Shown: piece by piece, positions 8,954-32,425 of the stretch
Layout: the number at the start of each line of letters is the position of its first letter
Position numbering within the stretch: position 1 is the first letter of the stretch
From: Streptomyces umbrinus
GTDB taxonomy: Bacteria > Actinomycetota > Actinomycetes > Streptomycetales > Streptomycetaceae
NCBI RefSeq assembly: GCF_030817415.1
Contig: NZ_JAUSZI010000002.1
Span: forward strand, 3,348,001-3,412,000
Direction of reading: 5' to 3'
DNA: 64,000 nucleotides
Notes under the pieces: model-generated
The model's database searches: none
Told to the model about the DNA's origin: nothing
The model's input: the letters and a program-made list of their open reading frames with translations, nothing else
Made by a program: the position numbers and the translations under genes

Positions 8954-9841
8954 TCAGGTGCGGCGCGCGGCCCACACCGTGCGCTCGGTACGCACGCTGA
9001 GGTCGGTGCGGCGCAGGACGCTGTGCGGGCTGTCGGTGTCGAGGAGTCGGTCGAGAGCGGTCAGGTCCTCGGCCGTCAGGGCCGATGCGGCGCTGCCGTG
9101 CAGGCGGCGCAGACTGCTGAGCGCGTAGCGGCCCACTGCGTCGGTGTGGGGCGGGCCGATGTCGACCGTGATGGTGCGTTCGCCCTCGACCGTGAAACCG
9201 GCTTCCGTCAGCTTGGTTCCCCAGTCGGCGCCGCGGTGGGGTACCTGCTCGGCGTGGTGGTGGTCGAGTGCGGAGTGGCAGCGCTCCTCAAGGCCGGGAG
9301 CCTCTTCCGGGGCCCCGGCGGGCAGGAACCGTGGGAAACCGGCCAGCTCGACGACGGCGAACAGCCCGCCCGGTGCCAGCAGGTCGTGGACCTGGCGGAG
9401 GGTGCGGTCGGGGTCGGACATGTGGTGCATGGAGGCCGATGCCCAGACCAGCTCCGGCGCGCCCAGGTCGGGCCACGCCGACGCGTCGAGGTCGGCCCTC
9501 ACGATGCGCAGACGGTCGGCCGCGCCTGCCTCCTCCTGCGCCCCCTCCGGCGCCCTCCCTCGTGCTTTCTCTTGGAGGCGGTGCAGGTGGGCGGCCGAGG
9601 AATCGACCGCCGTCAGCTCCGCATCGGGAAAGCGCTCCAGCAGAGCCAACGTGCCGGCTCCGGTCCCGCAGCCCAGATCCACCATGCGGCGGAGGCCGGC
9701 CCTCACGGGCAGCCAGGCGGTGATGGACTCGATGTGTTCGGCGAGTACTTCCGCGTCCAGGTCGAGCATCTCCGAGTGGTCGCCTGCGTCGTGCTCGTGC
9801 TCGTGAACATGGCTCGCTGTGTGCGGGGAGGCGTGGTTCAT
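8954..9841 (-). CDS. SAM-dependent methyltransferase with a His-rich N-terminus
   Basis: The protein has 295 residues and a class I Rossmann methyltransferase core: motif I VDLGCGTGAGTLALL, then LTAVDSS for the acidic ribose contact and APELVWASASMHHMSD for motifs II/III. The first 22 residues hold eight histidines (HASPH, HVHEHEHDAGDH), unusual for this family and suggestive of metal binding. No ribosome site precedes the ATG, but TAGCTT lies six bases before it, fitting a -10 hexamer for a leaderless transcript. Substrate unknown. Confidence 0.85.
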   Translation of the reverse strand: MNHASPHTASHVHEHEHDAGDHSEMLDLDAEVLAEHIESITAWLPVRAGLRRMVDLGCGTGAGTLALLERFPDAELTAVDSSAAHLHRLQEKARGRAPEGAQEEAGAADRLRIVRADLDASAWPDLGAPELVWASASMHHMSDPDRTLRQVHDLLAPGGLFAVVELAGFPRFLPAGAPEEAPGLEERCHSALDHHHAEQVPHRGADWGTKLTEAGFTVEGERTITVDIGPPHTDAVGRYALSSLRRLHGSAASALTAEDLTALDRLLDTDSPHSVLRRTDLSVRTERTVWAARRT

Positions 9842-9933
9842 GCGCCCAAGCTAGGCGGGCCGTTCGCGTCCGACCTGGTGGCTTCCGGAATGCGCAAGAC
9901 GATGACCGGCTGAGCTGCGGGACACGCAAGCGG

Positions 9934-10554
9934 TCACGGCGACGCAGACGGTGGCTGAGACGGGCGGTCCGCCTTCTCCGCATCGTCGCGGCGCTGGTGG
10001 CCGCGGCGGGCGTCGCGGTCGAAGATGCCGAGGATCTCGCACGGTCCGCCCTCGGCACCGATGGCGTGCGGAAGCATCGTGGTGAACTCCGCCGCCTGGT
10101 TGGTCTCGATCCGCAGGCGCCGGTTGCCCAGGAGCAGGATCGCGGTGCCGGAGAGGACGACGAGCCATTCGCGGCCCGGGTGGGCGCGCATCCGCGCGGG
10201 ATTGTCGGGCGGCGGGTCTGTCATGCGCTGGCGTACGACGGTCATGCCGGGCTCCGCCTTGATGGGCCAGCGCATCAGCCCGTGGGTCGCGTCGATCATC
10301 GGGTTGGAGATGACGTCGTCCGTGGCGGTCTCGACCAGTTGGTCCAGGGAGGTGTCGAGGGCACGGGCCAGGGTGACGAGCTGGTCCAGGGCCAGGCGGC
10401 GCTGACCGGTCTCGATGCGGCTGAGCGTGGACTGGCTGACCTGGGCGCGGGTGGCCAGCTCCTCCAGGGACCAGCCCTGGGCCACGCGCAGGGCACGGAT
10501 GCGTTTGCGTACCAGGCTGTCCAGCTCGCCATTGTCTTGCGTCATAGGCAACAT
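9934..10554 (-). CDS. XRE-family regulator with C-terminal cupin domain
   Basis: The protein has about 206 residues. Residues 12-70 form a Cro/C1 helix-turn-helix (GWSLEELATRAQVSQSTLSR), and the rest is a small cupin sensor (HPGREWLVVLSGTAILLLG). This architecture usually senses a small ligand and controls a neighbouring gene. It diverges from an MFS transporter 148 nt away, which is the likely target. Two ATGs (10554 and 10545) are possible and neither has a ribosome site, so it may be leaderless. The last 25 residues are charged and low in complexity. Confidence 0.85.
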   Translation of the reverse strand: MLPMTQDNGELDSLVRKRIRALRVAQGWSLEELATRAQVSQSTLSRIETGQRRLALDQLVTLARALDTSLDQLVETATDDVISNPMIDATHGLMRWPIKAEPGMTVVRQRMTDPPPDNPARMRAHPGREWLVVLSGTAILLLGNRRLRIETNQAAEFTTMLPHAIGAEGGPCEILGIFDRDARRGHQRRDDAEKADRPSQPPSASP

Positions 10555-10701
10555 CGTATGCCCGCGCGGCAAGAAGCGCTTAGCGTCGTTCCTGTCCGGC
10601 CCCGCAGTCCGCAAGGACTGGGCCCACCCCTGTCACCCATCACCCTTGGCGCTCCGGCGCCGATGTCCGCATGCCCTCCTGAGAGGAATCCCGAGGAATC
10701 C

Positions 10702-12312
10702 ATGAGTACGAACCAGGCTCCAGAAGAGAGCCCCGAGCCGAGCGGCGTCGGCGCCCCGGGCGAAGGCGTCCCGGACGCGCGCCAGCGTCGCACGATCCTG
10801 ATCGCCGTCTGTGTCGCGCTGATGGCCGTCATCGCGTCGGTGTCCGGGCTCAACGTGGCCCAGCCCGACCTCGCCGTCGCCTTCGACGCCTCCCAGAGCA
10901 CGGTCCTGTGGATCATCAACATCTACACGCTGAGCCTGGCCGCGCTCCTGTTGCCGCTGGGCGCGATCGGCGACCGCTTCGGCCGCAAGCCCATGCTGCT
11001 CACCGGCCTGACCGTCTTCGGCGTCGCCAGTGCGGTGGCGGGTCTGGCCCCGTCGACCGAGGTCATGCTCGCCGCTCGGCTGCTGAGCGGAGTGGGCGCG
11101 GCGATGATCATGCCCATCACCCTCGCCGTCATCACCTCGACCTTTCCCAAGGAGGAACGGGGACGGGCGATCGGGGTGTGGACCGGTGTGGCCGGCGGTG
11201 GCGGCGTCCTGGGCATGTTCCTCTCGGCCGCCCTGGTCGACGCGGTGAGCTGGCGGTGGCTGTTCGTCCTGCCCATCGCACTCGTCGTGGTCGCCCTCGC
11301 CATGACACTGCGGTCCGTCCCCAACTCCCGCGAGAGGTCCGGGCACGCCTTCGACACCGTCGGCGCGCTGACGTCCGTCGTCGCGGTGGTCGGGCTCATC
11401 TTCGTCCTCCAGGAAGGTCCCGAACGTGGCTGGACCGCCCTGGCGACCCTGATCGGCCTGGTCGTCGGCGTCATCGCCGCCATCGGCTTCGTAACCTGGG
11501 AACTGCGCCGTCGGGACGCCGCGCTTCTGGACGTACGTCTGTTCCGTGAGCGTGGTCTGGCCGGGGGCTCGGTCACGCTTCTGGTGGTCTTCGGGGTCCA
11601 GGCGGGCATCTTCGTGGTCCTCTTCCCGTTCTTCCAGGCCGTCCTCGGCTGGTCGGGGCTGCTGTCCACCCTGGCGCTGATGCCCATGGCCGTCATGATG
11701 ATGATGGCCTCCGGGCTCGCCCCGCGGCTGGCCGCGCGTGTCGGCCCCCGGGCGACCATGGCCACCGGCATCCTCCTGGCCGGTGCGGGTCTGGCGCTCA
11801 TGGCCGCCGTCGTCTCCGTCGACGGCGGTTACCTGTCCGTCCTACCCGGGATGCTCGCCATGGGCATCGGCATGGGGCTGTCGATGACGCCCTCCACCGA
11901 GGCCATCACCAGTGCCCTCCCGCGGGAACGCCAGGGCGTCGCGTCCGCGCTCAACGACGTCACCCGCGAGTTCGGCACCGCGCTCGGCGTCGCCCTGCTC
12001 GGAGCTCTCCTGTCCGCCGGCTACCGGGGCGCCATCGACTCCCGGCTCGCCGGCGTTCCCGAGGGCCCGGCCGACACCGCGCGCGAAGGTGTCGCCAACG
12101 CGCTCGACGCCGCGCCCCAGGCCGGCGCCCATGCGCGGTCGCTGGTGCGCGCCGCCCAGGAGTCGTTCGTCGACGGCTGGCAGAACGCCATGTGGGCAGG
12201 CGTCGCCGTCATGGCCGCCCTCTTCGTCTACGTCCTCGCCCGAGGGCCTCAGCAGCCCACGGGCGCACCGGCGAGCCGGCCGGAACCGGCGGCCGACGCG
12301 ATCGCTCCGTAA
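10702..12312 (+). CDS. MFS drug-efflux transporter (EmrB/QacA, 14-TM type)
   Basis: The protein has 536 residues. A 35-residue hydrophilic N-terminus is followed by about 14 membrane segments. Family landmarks are GLNVAQPDLAVAF in TM1, IINIYTLSLAALLLPLGAIG then DRFGRKP (motif A) after TM2, and LLSGVGAAMIMPITLAVI (motif C-like). It should export a cationic or amphipathic compound by proton antiport; the substrate is not predictable. It is divergent from the XRE-cupin regulator, its probable controller. The ATG at 10702 was chosen after the GAGGAATCC ribosome site. Confidence 0.88.
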   Translation: MSTNQAPEESPEPSGVGAPGEGVPDARQRRTILIAVCVALMAVIASVSGLNVAQPDLAVAFDASQSTVLWIINIYTLSLAALLLPLGAIGDRFGRKPMLLTGLTVFGVASAVAGLAPSTEVMLAARLLSGVGAAMIMPITLAVITSTFPKEERGRAIGVWTGVAGGGGVLGMFLSAALVDAVSWRWLFVLPIALVVVALAMTLRSVPNSRERSGHAFDTVGALTSVVAVVGLIFVLQEGPERGWTALATLIGLVVGVIAAIGFVTWELRRRDAALLDVRLFRERGLAGGSVTLLVVFGVQAGIFVVLFPFFQAVLGWSGLLSTLALMPMAVMMMMASGLAPRLAARVGPRATMATGILLAGAGLALMAAVVSVDGGYLSVLPGMLAMGIGMGLSMTPSTEAITSALPRERQGVASALNDVTREFGTALGVALLGALLSAGYRGAIDSRLAGVPEGPADTAREGVANALDAAPQAGAHARSLVRAAQESFVDGWQNAMWAGVAVMAALFVYVLARGPQQPTGAPASRPEPAADAIAP

Positions 12313-12337
12313 CCCCCGACCACCACGAGAAGCCCGC

Positions 12338-13177
12338 TCACGGTGCCGACTGGATGTCCCCCCGCGTCGAGGAAGCGATGGTGTCGCGGTGCGCGAAGTC
12401 GCCCGGGGGGATGCCCGGGTGGTGTCCGAGCCGGGCCGGCTGCGCGGTGGCCGAGGGGTCGAGGGTGAGCCGGGAGACGATGCGGTAGCGGTCGCCGCGG
12501 TAGATCGAGTGGACGTATTCGACGGGCTGCCCCGTGGTGTCCGAGGTGAGCCGCTCGAAGAGCAGCGCCGGGGACAGCTCGGGAACGTCGAGCAGTTCGG
12601 CCTCGGCCCGGGTGACGACGGTCGGCTCGATCGCCTGCACGGCCTCCTGGACGTACACGCCGTGCTGTTCGCGCAGGTGCTCGTACAGGTCGCCGGCCTC
12701 CAGTTCCTCGGCGGAGAGGGTGGGGACCAGGTCGGCCCTGATGTGCAGATGCTCGATGGCCATCGGGGCGCCGTCGACCAGGCGCAGCCGTGCCACGTAC
12801 ACGATCTCGGCGGCGGGTGAGATGCGCAGTTTGCGGCCCACGCGGGCGCCTGCCGCGAAGGTGGTGAACTCCAGGAGGCGGCTCGACCAGGCCCCGGACG
12901 CCTGGGGCGCCGTCATGGTCTGCTGGCCGGAGACGAGTTCCTGGGTGATCTTCTCGGGCGCCACGAACATGCCGCGGCCGTGTTCCCGCACCAGGAGTCC
13001 CGCGGCGACGAGCTCGTCGACCGCCGCGCGCAGGGTCGGACGGGACACGCCGAGGCGGGCACAGAGGGCTCGCTCGGAGGGGATCGCGTCACCCGGGCTG
13101 CGCGACTCGACGAGATCGAGGATGAAGTCGCGGACCCGCTCCCGCTTGAGCACCGCGCCTGGTGCGTCTTCCTTCAT
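12338..13177 (-). CDS. GntR-family (HutC/DasR subfamily) regulator
   Basis: The protein has 279 residues. The N-terminal winged helix has the GntR pattern GDAIPSERALCARLGVSRPT followed by LRAAVDELVAAG. The C-terminal UTRA ligand domain ends with VEYVHSIYRGDRYR, the hallmark of the HutC/DasR group. It faces a DasABC-like sugar transporter and hexosaminidase, so it most likely senses an amino-sugar phosphate or oligosaccharide and represses them. It is not DasR itself: its helix-turn-helix differs clearly from the DasR sequence I remember. A GAGGGGG site sits six bases before the ATG at 13177. It converges with the MFS gene, leaving only 25 nt. Confidence 0.88.
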   Translation of the reverse strand: MKEDAPGAVLKRERVRDFILDLVESRSPGDAIPSERALCARLGVSRPTLRAAVDELVAAGLLVREHGRGMFVAPEKITQELVSGQQTMTAPQASGAWSSRLLEFTTFAAGARVGRKLRISPAAEIVYVARLRLVDGAPMAIEHLHIRADLVPTLSAEELEAGDLYEHLREQHGVYVQEAVQAIEPTVVTRAEAELLDVPELSPALLFERLTSDTTGQPVEYVHSIYRGDRYRIVSRLTLDPSATAQPARLGHHPGIPPGDFAHRDTIASSTRGDIQSAP

Positions 13178-13215
13178 GCCGTGCCCCCTCATGCGCGCCA
13201 GCCGCTTTACCAGTT

Positions 13216-13226
13216 GACCAGTGGTC
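13216..13226. promoter_or_regulatory. GACCAGTGGTC palindrome, candidate GntR operator
   Basis: An 11-bp perfect palindrome lies between the GntR gene and the transporter, about 40 nt upstream of the GntR start. It contains the TGGTC half site shared with the other candidate sites in this intergenic region (13344-13358, and CCAGTG-5 nt-CACTGG at 13387-13403). Confidence 0.5.
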
Positions 13227-13343
13227 GCGCGCAACTGCCCTCCTGGTGGGGCGAAGTGTAACCGCTGCCGAACGGTGATCGCCCAGGCCCTGACCGGCTC
13301 AGGTGTCAAAAACCCAGCGGGCGCGGGGGGTTGACGCCACTGA

Positions 13344-13358
13344 TTGGTCTATGCCAGT
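13344..13358. promoter_or_regulatory. dre-like operator upstream of the sugar-binding protein gene
   Basis: TGGTCTATGCCA here matches 10 of 12 positions of the DasR-responsive element TGGTCTAGACCA (consensus from memory). It lies 80 nt upstream of the transporter start and just downstream of a TTGACG that could be a -35 box, so binding would block transcription. It may bind the adjacent GntR protein, DasR, or both. Confidence 0.5.
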
Positions 13359-13438
13359 TTCATCCCCGCATCAAGAGGTGAGCTGTCCAGTGGGCTTCAC
13401 TGGTCAGGTGGTTGGGTCATGTCCTCCAGAGGTGAACC

Positions 13439-14707
13439 GTGAAGCTCCGCTTGTTTGCCGGTGTGTCCGTGCTTGTGATGACCGCCGGGCTGAGTGCCTG
13501 CAGCAGTTCCTCCGACGACTCCGACGGCAGTTCCGGCGGGAGCACCACCATCGACGTCTGGCTGATGCGCGACAGCGTCTCGGCCGAGTTCCAGAGGGAC
13601 TTCGTCAAGGGCTTCGAGGCCGCTCACCCGGACATCAAGGCCAAGGTGCAGATCCAGGAGTGGGACGGGATCGGCGAGAAGGTCACGGCGGCCCTCGCCA
13701 GCGGTGACGCACCGGACGTGATCGAGACCGGCAACACCCAGGTCGCCCAGTTCGCGCAGAGCGGTGGCCTGCTCGACCTCAGCGACAAGGTCGACGAACT
13801 CGGGGGCAAGGACTGGCTCAAGGGTCTCGCCGAGCCCGGCGCCTACGAGGGCAAGCAGTACGGCATCCCGTACTACGCCGCCAACCGCGTCGTCATCCAC
13901 CGCACCGACCTCTTCAAGGAGGCGGGCGTCGACCCGGCCGCGATCAAGACCCGCGACCAGTGGATCGCCGCCACCAGGAAGCTCAACTCCGGTGACACAC
14001 AGGGCATCTATCTGCCCGGTCAGATGTGGTACGCCCTCGCGGGCTTCGTCTGGGACGAGGGCGGCGACCTCGCCACCGAGTCGGGCGGCAAGTGGCAGGG
14101 CGACCTCGACACCCCCGAGGCGATCCGCGGCATGGAGTTCTACGAGAAGCTCCAGGCACTCGGCAAGGGCCCCAAGGACTCCGACGAGGACAGCCCTCCG
14201 CAGGCGGACGTCATGGCCAAGGGGAAGGTCGCCCAGGTCATCTCGACTCCCGGCGGCGCCAACGTCATCATCGAGAACAACCCCCGGCTGAAGGGCAAGC
14301 TCGGCTTCTTCCCGATCCCGGGCAAGACCGCCGACACACCAGGCGCAGTGTTCACCGGCGGCTCCGACCTCGTCATCCCGACGGCCTCCGCCAAGCAGGA
14401 CGCGGCCTACACGTTCATCAAGGAACTCACCGGCGACGCCTGGCAGAAGAAGCTCGCCGTCGCCATGAGCTACGTCCCGAACAAGACCACCCTGGCCTCC
14501 GCGGTCGCCTCCGACCCGGGCGCCTCGGCCATGGCGGTCGGCGCCGCCGAAGGCCATGCCACACCCAACACACCGGGCTGGGCCGCCGTCGAGGCCAAGA
14601 ACCCGATCAAGGACTACATGACGGCCGTTCTCACCGGCGGCGACGCCAGGAAGGAAGCCGCCACCGCGTCCGACGCCATCACCACGGCGATGAACTCCGG
14701 CTCCTGA
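13439..14707 (+). CDS. sugar ABC transporter substrate-binding lipoprotein (DasA/NgcE-like)
   Basis: The protein has 422 residues. The N-terminus is a lipoprotein signal ending in LSAC, with Cys21 as the lipidated residue, followed by a Ser/Asp-rich tether. The body belongs to the family-1 solute-binding proteins. IQEWDGIGEKVTAALASG, DVIETGNTQVAQFA and IYLPGQMWYALAG resemble the chitobiose/GlcNAc binding proteins DasA and NgcE of Streptomyces as I remember them. The downstream hexosaminidase supports an N-acetylglucosamine-containing ligand (inference). The GTG start has AGAGGTGA upstream. It is the first gene of a five-gene same-strand run. Confidence 0.87.
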   Translation: MKLRLFAGVSVLVMTAGLSACSSSSDDSDGSSGGSTTIDVWLMRDSVSAEFQRDFVKGFEAAHPDIKAKVQIQEWDGIGEKVTAALASGDAPDVIETGNTQVAQFAQSGGLLDLSDKVDELGGKDWLKGLAEPGAYEGKQYGIPYYAANRVVIHRTDLFKEAGVDPAAIKTRDQWIAATRKLNSGDTQGIYLPGQMWYALAGFVWDEGGDLATESGGKWQGDLDTPEAIRGMEFYEKLQALGKGPKDSDEDSPPQADVMAKGKVAQVISTPGGANVIIENNPRLKGKLGFFPIPGKTADTPGAVFTGGSDLVIPTASAKQDAAYTFIKELTGDAWQKKLAVAMSYVPNKTTLASAVASDPGASAMAVGAAEGHATPNTPGWAAVEAKNPIKDYMTAVLTGGDARKEAATASDAITTAMNSGS

Positions 14708-25358: not shown

Positions 25359-26168
25359 TTGCGGCGTATCAACGGCACGGCCCTCGTCATCGTGGCACTC
25401 GTCGGCACACTCGGCGCGCTCGCGTTCCCCGTGTGGTCGTACGCCGACCGCGCCGGTACGGGGCAGGCGAACCTCGCCTCCGGAACCGTACCGACTCGCT
25501 GGGGTCCGCTGACCGCCAACGACCGCGACCTGATCGTCCGCGTGCGACTGGCGGGTCTGTGGGAGCTGCCGGCGGGGCAGCAGGCTGCCGAGCGCTTCCC
25601 GAACGGTCCGGTACGGGAGGCGGCCGACCACCTGATCGTCGGTCACACCGACCTCGACAAGCGCGCACGCAGCGTCGCCCGGGATCTCGGTGTCGAACTG
25701 CCGAACCAGCCCAACGAGCAGCAGCAGGGCTGGCTGAACCAGATGTCCGCGGCGTCGGACGAGGACTACGTGAAGGTGTGGGCGAACCTGCTCCGGTCCG
25801 CGCACGGCAAGATCTTTCCGGTGATCGGCACGGTCCGGAACCAGACGCGCAACACGCTGGTGCGTCAGCTCGCCTCGGACACCAACCAGACCGTGCTGGA
25901 TCACATCACGGTCCTTGAGAAGACCGGCGCGATCGACTTCGACGCGATCGCCAACGACTCGGTGGCCGGATCGACGGCCAGCCCGAGTGGTCCGCCGCCG
26001 CCGGTCTCGGGCGTGGCTCCGCCCGCGGCGCCGCCCGCGGAGGCCACAGGCGACATCCAGACCACCTCACGGCCTTCACCGGGTGCGCCGGGCACGGTCA
26101 ACACGAACCGGCCGGAGGCCGAGGACCCGGACAACCCGGTCTCGACTCAAACCTCGTCCGCGCCGTAG
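25359..26168 (+). CDS. DUF4142-family protein, TTG start (paralogue 1)
   Basis: The protein has 269 residues. An N-terminal membrane segment (VIVALVGTLGALAFPVWSYA) could be an uncleaved anchor or signal. A helical DUF4142 region follows (DLIVRVRLAGLWELPAG, LPNQPNEQQQGWL, HITVLEKTGAIDFDAIA), then a Pro/Ala/Ser-rich tail. Function is unknown; DUF4142 proteins are envelope proteins with a ferritin-like helical bundle. No ATG or GTG fits. A TTG preceded by GGGAGGCACC matches exactly the position of the ATG of the paralogue at 28146, which also has GGAGGCACC, so TTG is the start. It lies upstream of the DUF692 gene on the same strand. Confidence 0.85.
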   Translation: MRRINGTALVIVALVGTLGALAFPVWSYADRAGTGQANLASGTVPTRWGPLTANDRDLIVRVRLAGLWELPAGQQAAERFPNGPVREAADHLIVGHTDLDKRARSVARDLGVELPNQPNEQQQGWLNQMSAASDEDYVKVWANLLRSAHGKIFPVIGTVRNQTRNTLVRQLASDTNQTVLDHITVLEKTGAIDFDAIANDSVAGSTASPSGPPPPVSGVAPPAAPPAEATGDIQTTSRPSPGAPGTVNTNRPEAEDPDNPVSTQTSSAP

Positions 26169-26339
26169 CGGGGCATGACCGCCGCCCGCGTCCCGAAGCT
26201 CAAATGTTGCTCTGAACGTCCCCGCCGATGGGTTCGGCCCCGCTTCCCGGGGCCATGACCCCGTCACGCCGGAACACAGGTCCGTCGAAGGAGACGACGC
26301 ACAGGTCCTGGTGAAGCCGTGGTGAAGGAGGGGGACGAG

Positions 26340-27722
26340 ATGAAGCACTTGGGTACGGGAATCGGGTGGCGGCCGGAGATCGCGGAGGCCGTGGAGGGCA
26401 TGCCCGGCATCGACTGGGTCGAGGCCGTCGCGGAGAACGTGTGCCCGGGGCATCTCCCCGAGTCGCTGGTGCGGCTGCGCGAGCGCGGCGTCACGGTGGT
26501 TCCGCACGGGGTGTCGCTCGGCCTCGGCGGCGCCGACCGCCCCGACGAGGGAAAGCTCGCCGATCTCGCGGCGGCCGCCGAGGCCCTCGGCTCCCCTCTC
26601 GTCACCGAGCACATCGCGTTCGTCCGCGCGGGCGGGGCGCTCACCGCCTCGCCCCTCCTGGAGGCCGGGCACCTGCTGCCAGTCCCCCGCACCAGGGACG
26701 CCCTCGACGTCCTCTGCGAGAACATCCGCATCGCCCAGGACGCGCTGCCCGTGCCGCTAGCGGTGGAGAACATCGCGGCGCTGATCTCCTGGCCGGGCGA
26801 GGAGATGACCGAGGGGCAGTTCCTGTACGACCTGGCCGACCGCACCGGCGTACGCCTCCTCATCGACGTGGCCAACCTCCACACCAACCACGTCAACCGC
26901 GGTGAGGACCCCGCCAAGGCCCTCGACGAGCTGCCCGTCGAGGCGATCGCGTACGTCCACGTCGCCGGCGGTTTCGAACGCGACGGCGTGTGGCACGACA
27001 GCCACGCCCACGCCGTGCCGCCCGCCGTCCTCGCGATCCTCGCCGACCTGTCCTCCCGGGTCCGCCCGCCGGGCGTACTCCTGGAGCGCGACGAGAACTT
27101 CCCCGCACCGGCCGAGCTGGAGCGAGAGCTGACGGCGATCCGGGAGACGGTGGAGAAGGGGGCTCTCTCGGTGGTTCCGACGGTGTCCGCCGAGGCCGCA
27201 TCCGAGACCGCCGCCTCCGAGACCTCCGACGCTTCCAAGGCCTCCGACGCTTCCGGAACCACCGACCCGGATTCCGGTGACGCACCGAAGGCGTCACCCT
27301 CCACCGACCCCTCCCGCCAGCGGCTCGCCCTCGCGCAGGCGGCCCTGTTGTCCGCGCTGGTCGCCGGGACGCCCGTGCCGGAGGGCTTCGACGGGACCCG
27401 GCTGTCCGTGCAGGCCCGGGCGCTGGCGGGCAAGCGGGCCGATGTCGTGGCCAAGGTCGCGCCTGAGCTGCCGGAGATTCTGGCGGCGGCGTACCGCACG
27501 TCGTTCGTCGCGTACGCGCACGGCCACCCGATGACCGGCGGCTACCGGCGGGACGCGCTGGACTTCGCCGAGCATCTGCTGCTGGGCGGCCGGCTGGAGG
27601 ACCCGGACGTACGGCGGCGGGTGAGCGACTGGTGGCTGGAGCGCTCGGGTCCCGCGCCGCTGTCGCAGCACCCGGCTGCCAGGCTGGCGCGCGCCACGCG
27701 GCGGGTACTGCTCAGGCGATGA
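26340..27722 (+). CDS. DUF692 (MNIO) enzyme with fused C-terminal domain
   Basis: The protein has 460 residues. Residues 1-265 form the DUF692 barrel of multinuclear non-heme iron oxidases (MbnB, TglH relatives): GIGWRPE at the start, [11 protein letters not shown] (His56), VTEHIAF (Glu90, His91), VENI (Glu143), [10 protein letters not shown] (Asp176, Asn179), VHVAGG (His207), HDSHAHAVP (Asp220, His222) and LERDENFP (Glu249, Asp251). These are the expected iron ligands. A 45-residue Ser/Ala/Thr/Asp linker (281-326) leads to a helical domain of about 130 residues ([30 protein letters not shown]) that resembles the separate partner proteins of MNIO systems. No obvious peptide substrate is adjacent. 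GGAGGGGGACGAG precedes the ATG. Confidence 0.88.
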
Positions 27723-28145
27723 GGCGCGTCCCGCTGAGGCGATGACGGGGTCCCGCCCGGGGCGTTGAGAACGAGTCGACACCGGGCGTAGAGGCCTTCG
27801 TCACCGCGTGACATCGCTCACCGGGCGACACGGGCGCCGGATCTGTACAGAACAGCGGGCCCCTTGCCTGCTCAGTGCCACTGCGCCGACGGCCGGGCGC
27901 GCGGGCTCGCATCCGGCCGGCGCCGGGCGCACCCCGCGTGTGCGCGTGGTGCACGAAAGCCCGCCCGCCGTGGGCCGCGCGCCGCCGCACCGCCCGCCAC
28001 CTGCGAAAACACCCTGCCTGCGGCCGTCTGTCCGGATTCGTACGGCAACCGTCCGAACCCGTACCTCAGTTGACGTACACCGCGCAGTAATATTCCACCT
28101 TCAACCCGAAGCGCACTAACGTGCGGTGCCGCAACAGGAGGCACC
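27723..28145 (+). other. 423-nt region with no clear gene; possible small Cys-containing frame
   Basis: No recognisable gene lies between the DUF692 and second DUF4142 genes. All three forward frames are open for 60-100 codons over GC-rich sequence, so openness is not evidence. One of them (TTG at 27864 to TGA at 28073, 69 codons, five Cys including QCHCADG and ATCEN) has fairly high GC in the third position but no ribosome site. The last 100 nt become less GC rich and include TAATAT (28088-28093), probably promoter sequence for the next gene. Confidence 0.4.
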
Positions 28146-29018
28146 ATGCGATCCATCAACAGCCGCAGACTGTTCAGCGGCACCGGGCTCATCGTCACGG
28201 GCCTGGCGGCGACCCTCGTGGCGCTGATCTTCCCGGTCTGGTCGTACTCGGACCGGTCGGGCACCGGTGTGGACACGCTCAACGCCCAGACCTTGTCGAC
28301 GAGGTACGGCCCGCTGTCCGCGCTGGACCGGGAGTTCGTCACCAAGGTGCGGCTCGCTGGCCTGTGGGAGCTGCCCGCCGGCCAGCAGGCCGAGGAACGC
28401 GGCACGACCCAGGCGGTCAAGACGGCGGGCGAGCACCTCGTGGAGGGGCACACGTTCCTGGACGAGCGGGTGCGCGACGTGGCCTCGCGGCTCGGGCTCC
28501 AGTTGCCCAACCAGCCCAACGAGCAGCAGCAGGCGTGGCTCGGCACGCTGAGCGCGGCACGGGGCGAGGAATACGACGTCCAGTTCGCGAACATCCTGCG
28601 CAAGGCGCACGGCAAGGTCTTCGGCCTGGTCGCCCAGGTCCGCGCGAGCACCCGCAACTCGCTCGTCCGCGGTCTCGCCGACGACGCGAACACCACGGTT
28701 CTGGACCACATCACGGTCCTGGAGGCCACCGGACTCGTCGACTTCGACGCCCTGGCCCGGGACGCGGCCACCGCGAGCCCGCCGCCGCTCACCAACTCCC
28801 CGGCCCCGCCCGGTCCGACGGACTCCCCGAGCGCGCCCGTCCCGGTCTCCCCGTCCCCGGCCTCCCCCTCCCCTTCGCCGACGTACACGCTGCCGCCGCC
28901 CGCGACGAGCCGCCCACCGGAGGACGACAAGCCGAAGGAATCCACGGAATCCAAGAAGTCCGCGGCCTCGAAGGGCGGGGACAAGGACGAGGGCAAGTCC
29001 GAGGACAAGAAGCCCTGA
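28146..29018 (+). CDS. DUF4142-family protein (paralogue 2)
   Basis: The protein has 290 residues and is a clear paralogue of the product at 25359: FPVWSY after the N-terminal membrane segment, KVRLAGLWELPAGQQA, LPNQPNEQQQAWLGTLSAA, and HITVLEATGLVDFDALA are all shared. The C-terminal 80 residues differ, being a Pro/Ser-rich region (TLPPPATSRPPEDD) ending in a Lys/Asp/Glu/Ser-rich stretch that may be flexible and surface exposed. AGGAGGCACC precedes the ATG. Two copies flanking one DUF692 gene suggest a tandem duplication and a shared envelope function. Confidence 0.87.
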   Translation: MRSINSRRLFSGTGLIVTGLAATLVALIFPVWSYSDRSGTGVDTLNAQTLSTRYGPLSALDREFVTKVRLAGLWELPAGQQAEERGTTQAVKTAGEHLVEGHTFLDERVRDVASRLGLQLPNQPNEQQQAWLGTLSAARGEEYDVQFANILRKAHGKVFGLVAQVRASTRNSLVRGLADDANTTVLDHITVLEATGLVDFDALARDAATASPPPLTNSPAPPGPTDSPSAPVPVSPSPASPSPSPTYTLPPPATSRPPEDDKPKESTESKKSAASKGGDKDEGKSEDKKP

Positions 29019-29121
29019 CAACCGGAACGCAGCGAAGCGAAACGTCACACTGTGGCGACGCTCCGTCCAAATTGTGAACAAGCCGTGGCGCGCCCGGGCC
29101 TCCTTCGCATAGAAATCCCGC

Positions 29122-29898
29122 ATGTTCTGGGTCCTCCTCCTGCTCCTGGCCTGGGTCGCGGCCGGCACCACGTGCACGCGTCTGTGCCTGGCCTCGGTCC
29201 GCGCCGCCGCCGTCGTCGACGAGACGGACCGGTTCCAGGGCCGCGGTCTCACGCTGTACGAGGCGGCGTTCCTGTCGGGCGGCCCCGCGCGGGTCGCCGA
29301 TCTGACACTGGTGTCGATGGCCCGCCAGCGCCGCCTGCTGCTCGCCCACACGGGCTGGGCGACCGTCGTGGACCCGCGCGGCCGGGACGAGATGGAGCGC
29401 TCGGTACTGGGCGCGATAGGCCCGTACGGACAGTCCCGGATCGCGCCGGTCCGTACGACCGCGGCCGCCGCGGAATCCGTACGTGTCCTCGCCGACCGCC
29501 TCGTCGCGGCGGGCCTCGCCGTGCCGGACGGCGCCCGCACCACCGTCGCGGGTGCGGTGCGCCAGGTGCGGGCCGCAGCGGCGGCCGTGCTGGTGCTGGG
29601 CGCGGTCGCCCTGTTGATGCCGTCTCAGGCGCAGGAGAACCGGGCCCTGGTGGCCATCTGGTTCACGCTCCCGCTCATCCTCACCCTGAGCTGCCTCGCC
29701 ATAGCCCGGATCGAGGTCCACCCCTACACGCGCTGGGCGTCCCCGGCCGGCCAGCACCTGCTGAGCGCCCTGGCCCGCCGCGCGGACACAGGCAGCGACG
29801 ACCGTACGTACCTCACCACCGTGGCCGTACGCGGCATCCGCGCGATCGGCGAACCGGGCCTCCGGGCTGCCTTCGCGCACCGCGAACCGCACGCCTAG
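29122..29898 (+). CDS. TIGR04222-type membrane protein
   Basis: The protein has 258 residues. The first 20 residues are a hydrophobic segment (WVLLLLLAWVAAGTT). The next 120 contain the family pattern LTLYEAAFLSGGPARVADL and TGWATVVDP. Two more membrane segments occur near residues 155-195. Function is unknown. Family members elsewhere often end in a Gly/Cys-rich tail, but this one ends plainly (REPHA). From memory this family often occurs beside DUF692 genes in actinobacteria, which makes the present neighbourhood meaningful. Confidence 0.8.
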   Translation: MFWVLLLLLAWVAAGTTCTRLCLASVRAAAVVDETDRFQGRGLTLYEAAFLSGGPARVADLTLVSMARQRRLLLAHTGWATVVDPRGRDEMERSVLGAIGPYGQSRIAPVRTTAAAAESVRVLADRLVAAGLAVPDGARTTVAGAVRQVRAAAAAVLVLGAVALLMPSQAQENRALVAIWFTLPLILTLSCLAIARIEVHPYTRWASPAGQHLLSALARRADTGSDDRTYLTTVAVRGIRAIGEPGLRAAFAHREPHA

Positions 29899-31687: not shown

Positions 31688-32425
31688 CTACGCGAGCCCG
31701 GCAACCAGCTCAGCAACCGACTTACGCCGCCCGGTATAGAACGGCACCTCTTCCCGGACATGCATCCGAGCCTCGGACGCACGAAGGTGACGCATGAGAT
31801 CCACAATGCGATACAACTCGTCCGCCTCGAACGCGAGCATCCACTCGTAGTCGCCGAGCGAGAACGAGGCAACCGTGTTGGCACGCACGTCCGGGTACCC
31901 CCGAGCCATCTTGCCGTGGTCGGCGAGCATCCGGCGACGGTCCTCGTCCGGCAGCAGGTACCAGTCGTAGGAGCGCACGAAGGGGTACACGCTGATGTAG
32001 TTGCGCGGCGTCTCGTCGGCGAGGAACGCCGGGATGTGCGAGCGGTTGAACTCCGCCGGCCGGTGCAGCGCCATGTTCGACCAGACCGGCTCCAGCGCGC
32101 GGCCCAGCTTCGTACGGCGGAAGAGGTTGTACGCCTCCTGGAGCTGGTCAGCCGTCTCGGCGTGCCACCAGATCATGAGGTCGGCGTCGGCGCGCAGCCC
32201 CGACACGTCGTACGTGCCGCGGATCGTGACGTCCTTGGCTTCGAGCTGGTCGAAGAGCTCCTGGACCTCGTTCGCGTACCCGGCGCGCGCAGCGTCATCG
32301 GGGAGGACGTCTCGAAGTCTGAACACGGACCAGAGGGTGTAGCGGATGACCTCGTTGAGGTCCTTGGCCTTCTTGCCGGCGTTCGGGATCCTGGCCTGGC
32401 CGGTGGTGGGGGCGTCGTCACTCAT
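31688..32425 (-). CDS. hemQ: coproheme decarboxylase HemQ (ChdC)
   Basis: The protein has 245 residues and belongs to the chlorite-dismutase superfamily. It performs the last step of the coproporphyrin-dependent heme route, the oxidative decarboxylation of coproheme to heme b. The catalytic tyrosine is in [12 protein letters not shown] (Tyr147), and the proximal heme histidine in [11 protein letters not shown] (His170), as expected for actinobacterial members. It follows hemG by four bases on the same strand, so the two enzymes of the same pathway are coexpressed. Confidence 0.93.

Follow-up and report, generated by a model that had tools for sequence, protein, structure and literature searches.

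Sequence evidence for a fused MNIO/partner enzyme conserved in Streptomyces lineages without its likely substrate gene

What does a multinuclear iron oxidase (MNIO, DUF692) act on when no precursor gene lies beside it? The question is raised by a stretch of 64,000 nucleotides from Streptomyces umbrinus (RefSeq GCF_030817415.1, contig NZ_JAUSZI010000002.1, positions 3,348,001 to 3,412,000; here called the window), in which an initial annotation, made from the letters alone, described a DUF4142–DUF692–DUF4142–TIGR04222 locus. All four open reading frames (ORFs) lie at that place on the + strand and are supported by profile matches, so the observation is correct; the interpretation attached to it is correct in part. 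The combination had been placed outside the described MNIO pathways, but clusters that pair an MNIO with TIGR04222 have already been described in Actinomycetota by Antoine et al. 2025 (PMC12452194). That paper proposes the Gly/Ser/Cys-rich C-terminal tail of TIGR04222 as the MNIO substrate, finds that at least 10% of the clusters have PME-type 2 partners and notes that many appear partnerless. The window likewise has an MNIO adjoining a TIGR04222 membrane protein, but its partner is fused to the enzyme, its TIGR04222 gene lies downstream of the MNIO and encodes a protein without the Cys tail, and there are two DUF4142 genes besides. Here, we report that the locus adds to this kind of cluster a fused enzyme and partner, the loss of the likely substrate gene and an enzyme that has nevertheless been conserved.

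The MNIO domain and its fused partner

The window MNIO scores 254 bits against PF05114 (cut-off 25). It carries H56, H91, E143, D176, N179, H207, D220, H222 and E249 at nine positions that we take to be metal ligands from an alignment with 8hci and 3bww. As the annotation had claimed, all of them are in place, and they are invariant in 163/163 Streptomyces loci, a set not de-duplicated between collections in which L073 and L305 are apparently the same strain (L and G numbers denote loci and genomes).

The C-terminal third of the same protein is, on sequence and structure model, an MNIO partner of DUF2063-like type. Among homologues of this domain scoring above 60 bits, 87 are fused to an MNIO and 29 are separate genes beside one; outside Streptomyces the partner is mostly a gene of its own adjoining the MNIO, and fusions are found there too, on separate branches of the tree (L204, L206, L212, L216, L219, L221, L225, L231, L234 and L237). 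The structure model (pLDDT 89.4) has its best matches in the Protein Data Bank (PDB) in TglI and MbnC, both MNIO partners; the domain is encoded with an MNIO and has the predicted fold of known partners. Profile similarity to DUF2063 is detectable (best of 68 members, E 1.2e-4). The window domain falls below the Pfam cut-off for DUF2063 (0 families matched) and does not show the composition of PME-type 1 partners, which is PF09836 plus a recognition element (RRE) for ribosomally synthesised and post-translationally modified peptides (RiPPs), and searching PDB sequences with the profile of the partner gave chance-level matches only. The statement that no separate partner gene is visible is therefore literally correct, but it overlooked a partner fused to the C-terminus of the MNIO, with homologues that are MNIO neighbours and a TglI/MbnC-like predicted fold.

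With bufferins and captophorins (BufB/HvfB/FonB with a DUF2063-RRE partner) the window locus shares the enzyme superfamily (BufB model, E 1.6e-51) and a DUF2063-related partner. It differs in that the MNIO remains below the curated BufB cut-off (NF050167; 175 vs 310 bits) and that no Cys-rich precursor was found at the locus. TglHI and MbnBC also consist of an enzyme and a partner, to which the fused domain is similar in modelled fold, but there the two are separate chains. Those systems act on small precursor peptides and are not known to include membrane proteins of the kind found at MNIO–TIGR04222 loci. The fused domain, at ~140 residues, is shorter than the 250–260 residues of DUF2063-RRE partners, and MovX, which is the second MNIO in methanobactin-like Vibrio clusters, offers a parallel in that its extra domain may be a built-in partner, although it is a winged helix-turn-helix and not a set of DUF2063-like helices (PMC12452194). 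Among the passages covered by a literature search, we saw no account of the fused partner and no published tie between DUF4142 and an MNIO. SCO6045, the namesake of the partner family and taken as the orthologue of the window MNIO from the Pfam name alone, is among the S. coelicolor genes that oxidative stress raises ~3-fold, and the rise is absent in an HbpS-SenS-SenR mutant (PMC4991794).

Loss of the Cys-tailed TIGR04222 gene

We compared 83 Streptomyces loci (24 from a class sample and 59 hand-picked from listed genus-sample matches, skipping bufferin-type second MNIOs) with 35 loci from outside the genus (36 regions minus L236, which has no MNIO). Outside Streptomyces, our own TIGR04222 profile found a Cys-tailed protein at 23/35 MNIO loci, a tail-less one at 1 and none at 11. 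Seven of these 11 hold a Cys-tailed ORF that the profile had missed (L202, L211, L214, L223, L233, L234 and L235), which gives a corrected count of 30/35 with a Cys-tailed TIGR04222 beside the MNIO and leaves five without (L209, L212, L213, L221 and L226). The tails have the appearance GSSCGGGGCGGG; L202 and L214 have 3 tail Cys. Three or more Cys among the final 60 residues are present in 25/26 profile-matched non-Streptomyces TIGR04222 proteins, compared with 3/20 loci from 19 MNIO-less genomes, where only L330 has a clear Cys repeat. The genome of L330 (G217) thus encodes a clear Gly/Ser/Cys-tailed TIGR04222, and an MNIO was not found in it.

From hydropathy and charge, TIGR04222 is predicted to have a single membrane helix, a domain in the cytoplasm, a helical hairpin and a tail that is likewise cytoplasmic, with three helices above threshold in 7/9 proteins examined. 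A tail so placed would be reachable by a cytoplasmic MNIO, whereas Antoine et al. (PMC12452194) put it in the periplasm. TIGR04222 seems related to the C-terminal membrane domain of DUF2207: three of three sub-threshold matches tested from other actinobacteria (L103, L105 and L108, from L102–L120) match DUF2207_C.

In Streptomyces the MNIO is followed by a Cys-tailed TIGR04222 at 43 of the 83 loci, by a tail-less one only at 32 and by neither at 8, some of which are at contig edges. Tail-less proteins have 0–2 Cys in the last 60 residues (111 proteins counted), and one protein classed as Cys-tailed (L296) has fewer than 3. The window protein has Cys only at positions 18, 22 and 191, with no C-proximal Cys-rich segment and no Cys beyond residue 191. 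The fullest Streptomyces form (L268, L304 and L305) reads DUF4142, MNIO/partner, Cys-tailed TIGR04222, DUF4142, tail-less TIGR04222, and the window arrangement is this form minus the Cys-tailed gene. As the arrangement recurs in other Streptomyces, the locus is not a product of chance; the 12.4-Mb genome contains one MNIO, one TIGR04222 and six DUF4142 genes. The best 80 relatives of the window MNIO in named genomes are all from Streptomyces, a set nearest to the window and hence biased to its own locus type.

On an MNIO tree of 88 rows (the weak MNIO of L226 being omitted), the presence of the Cys-tailed gene must change no fewer than seven times. In a 45-row clade (SH-aLRT 94) the gene occurs only in L304 and L305, and in a 38-row clade nested within it (89) it is never present. 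Searching the gaps downstream of the MNIO by tblastn with Cys-tailed TIGR04222 proteins gave no remnant in 99 of 102, including the window; the other three, at <60 bases, were too short for the method. The gaps of 10 loci contain sixteen + strand frames with at least 5 Cys, of which the window has one; by eye all are unlike except those of L062 and L181, which share sequence. A Cys-rich precursor in the window's 423-bp gap was rejected because no remnant of a Cys-tailed TIGR04222 was found and the Cys frames are not alike across loci. A scan of the window for other Gly/Ser/Cys tails (C-terminal 45 residues with at least 4 Cys and 45% Gly+Ser) was also negative, and together with the tblastn result this bears out the annotation, which saw no standard precursor. 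By these comparisons the Cys-tailed TIGR04222 gene has been lost without detected trace in the window's lineage, and its tail-less paralogue remains. Second TIGR04222 copies elsewhere (G211, G238, G260 and G270) were discarded as displaced substrates, with a single Cys per tail.

Loss of the gene has not been followed by decay of the enzyme. For the MNIO domain, the median pairwise ratio of nonsynonymous to synonymous substitution rates (dN/dS) is 0.123 at loci that lack the Cys-tailed gene (96 sequences, omitting L200, L264, L287, L292, L302 and loci with <3.6 kb downstream) and 0.204 at those that have it (44 sequences). Corresponding values are 0.286 vs 0.365 for the partner domain and 0.325 vs 0.448 for the tail-less TIGR04222, and the Cys-tailed protein itself has a median of 0.80. 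In the genus sample, PF05114 is matched in 187/199 genomes and TIGR04222 (E at most 1e-12) in 173/199. In 20 genomes an MNIO is present and TIGR04222 was not found; seven of these are in at most 3 contigs (G023, G249, G454, G509, G517, G535 and G581), and the remainder are more fragmented, so that absence there may reflect assembly gaps. Likewise, 19 of the 163 Streptomyces loci have no TIGR04222 in the fetched stretch despite >6 kb downstream, 11 of them with DUF4142 and 8 with neither. Two more were first scored this way, making 21, but do have the gene: in L021 (S. afghaniensis, 9437 to 14348) an insertion of ~5 kb separates the MNIO from the downstream DUF4142 and TIGR04222, and in L044 (5754–7352, minus strand) lies the sole TIGR04222 found opposite its MNIO strand. 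Judged from sequence, the MNIO has not decayed in lineages without the Cys-tailed gene and is under strong purifying selection there, in agreement with the earlier reading that it looks functional; the parts of the locus, the fusion and the loss are established in the same way. Six genomes (G389, G462, G517, G525, G577 and G613) hold a further MNIO (PF05114 E below 1e-105) that is bufferin-like by score only.

Table 1. Positions of the locus features within the window
Feature	Position	Strand	Support or remark
DUF4142 protein 1	25359..26168	+	PF13628 E 1e-15, 58.7 bits vs cut-off 27
MNIO/partner fusion gene	26340..27722	+	PF05114 E 1.4e-75
MNIO (DUF692) catalytic domain	26355..27149	+	residues 6-270 of 26340-27722 product; PF05114
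Variable linker, MNIO to partner domain	27150..27302	+	residue conservation down to ~0.1, 81 sequences
Fused MNIO-partner domain (PF26136, 'SCO6045-like C-terminal domain'), DUF2063-like by sequence and model	27303..27719	+	
Gap, site of Cys-tailed TIGR04222 gene in other Streptomyces	27723..28145	+	no remnant by tblastn
DUF4142 protein 2	28146..29018	+	PF13628 E 7.6e-22, 78.5 bits vs cut-off 27
TIGR04222 membrane protein without Cys-rich tail (Tt)	29122..29898	+	E 9.3e-41, 139.9 bits vs cut-off 43
HemQ (chlorite dismutase family), synteny marker outside the system	31688..32425	-	PF06778 E 5.5e-79

Where the substrate may be encoded

Strong purifying selection on the MNIO despite the gene loss makes it most likely that its substrate or substrates are encoded elsewhere, and its retention in Streptomyces in which no TIGR04222 was found also makes this probable. 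We therefore favour, with reasonable though limited confidence, an explanation in which the enzyme was kept, its likely local substrate gene was lost and the MNIO/partner works on at least one substrate whose gene lies elsewhere. The annotation had left two options, a substrate encoded elsewhere or an envelope protein; the first is preferred, since the MNIO is conserved and no precursor was found, and the second survives only as a low-rated rival.

The core of the system would be a cytoplasmic MNIO that carries its own partner domain. In the ancestral actinobacterial unit, MNIO and partner would have been accompanied by a membrane protein of TIGR04222 type whose tail carried Gly/Ser/Cys repeats. 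The partner domain would present the substrate and the iron centre would oxidise its cysteines, probably into groups that bind metal, as happens in bufferins and captophorins. The window lineage would then have lost the Cys-tailed gene and retained the rest of the fullest Streptomyces form. We infer the substrate in trans, the role of metal and the chemistry. A more specific and tentative proposal, to which we give less than even weight, is that the fusion, near-core across most of Streptomyces, has become independent of any precursor encoded nearby and is a housekeeping enzyme that modifies one or more ordinary proteins in trans, possibly at non-Cys residues, with a link to metal or redox stress, and is not a RiPP maturase.

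The DUF4142 and tail-less TIGR04222 neighbours

Both DUF4142 proteins have an N-terminal hydrophobic anchor and a helical domain, followed by a Pro-rich tail in protein 1 (which has invariant His in the helical domain, a TTG start codon and GGGAGG ahead of the start) and a Pro/Ser/Lys-rich tail in protein 2. In an alignment of 19 DUF4142 sequences, three His (H97, H102 and H155, numbered as in the 28146 protein) never vary and a fourth, H188, almost never does, a set that suggests a metal site. The DUF4142 protein of a lanthanide metallophore locus is termed ferritin-like in PMC11317620, and those of the window are probably exported, ferritin-like, metal-related accessories. A term search of the main text of PMC12452194 found no DUF4142, and the words DUF4142 and DUF692 occur together in one paper, which presents a database of Cys in DUF proteins (PMC12828279).

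DUF4142 genes lie within 6.5 kb of the MNIO, on its strand, at 43/83 Streptomyces loci but at 0/35 loci elsewhere, and among the 163 Streptomyces loci 151/151 of those within this distance are on the MNIO strand. HemQ, however, is in the fetched stretch of the MNIO at 130/136 Streptomyces loci with enough flank, compared with 1/30 outside the genus. Such conserved synteny could also explain the presence of DUF4142. The annotation had foreseen that synteny with heme genes might account for the whole association. Heme-gene linkage was rejected as the cause of the MNIO–TIGR04222 pairing, as the link between MNIO, TIGR04222 and partner persists outside Streptomyces mostly without HemQ; the concern stands in part for DUF4142, with a link confined to the genus in which HemQ is conserved too.

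Hence DUF4142 could be a mere syntenic passenger that duplicates at a conserved Streptomyces locus and does no joint work with the MNIO, which we regard as quite possible, if short of an even chance. HemQ is even more conserved nearby, the tree requires 15 changes of DUF4142 presence, and there are more DUF4142 copies elsewhere in the genome. Against this stand the strict co-orientation, the on-site duplication and the rarity of DUF4142 in MNIO-less genomes: a search of 14 MNIO-less Streptomyces (G422, with only a weak, off-type PF05114 match, is counted as MNIO-less) with DUF4142 protein 2 gave no match in 10. Matches were close in G440 and G619, weak in G528 and close in G516, in which the fetched stretch has no HemQ, MNIO or TIGR04222. 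The genes of G440 and G619 were set aside as proof that DUF4142 outlives the MNIO because they are at contig ends and an MNIO could follow. Nor do we rely on a Fisher p of 0.03, which compares unlike counts (43/83 loci nearby vs 1/9 chosen genomes anywhere) uncorrected for kinship. A functional tie between DUF4142 and the MNIO remains plausible.

Less probable is that the tail-less TIGR04222 protein is itself the substrate, through a juxtamembrane C18-x3-C22 pair predicted near the cytoplasmic face; we consider this unlikely. A CxxxC near the N-terminus is found in 100/111 tail-less but 0/45 Cys-tailed Streptomyces proteins, C18 and C22 are conserved to 94–95% where the Cys-tailed gene is absent, and in G478, where neither MNIO nor DUF4142 was found, the tail-less TIGR04222 that survives at the HemQ locus (L282) is without C22. 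That survival without an MNIO also counts against the idea, as does persistence of the MNIO where no TIGR04222 was found. The pair is conserved with the Cys-tailed gene present as well (97 and 86%), and the 11/111 tail-less proteins without CxxxC (one of which, L076, looks truncated) lie beside an MNIO with intact ligands, exceptions that weaken the motif as a strict MNIO mark.

Slightly more doubtful still is the envelope system proposed in the annotation, in which the MNIO acts on, or together with, the DUF4142 proteins as one pathway. The proximity and co-orientation of DUF4142, its absence from most of the MNIO-less Streptomyces searched and its ferritin-like label in the metallophore locus would fit. 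It is missing, however, from 40/83 Streptomyces loci and from all 35 outside the genus, and neither window protein contains Cys, so that as MNIO substrates they would require modification at another residue. The gaps between the four window genes are 171, 423 and 103 bp and do not establish a single operon, the first two separating the MNIO from the DUF4142 pair. Finally, that the MNIO is vestigial and drifting where the Cys-tailed gene is absent would follow naturally from loss of the likely substrate gene, but is very improbable given its invariant ligand positions, a dN/dS below that with the Cys-tailed gene and the presence of PF05114 throughout most of the genus.

Antoine et al. (PMC12452194) leave the working of partnerless TIGR04222-linked MNIOs unexplained, and for Streptomyces the answer is likely the fused partner. 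The split between lineages that have the Cys-tailed gene and those that lack it is a natural experiment on the true MNIO target in a well-studied genus. If the favoured explanation is true, a genus-wide MNIO that modifies proteins in trans would show that the family is not confined to RiPP precursors.

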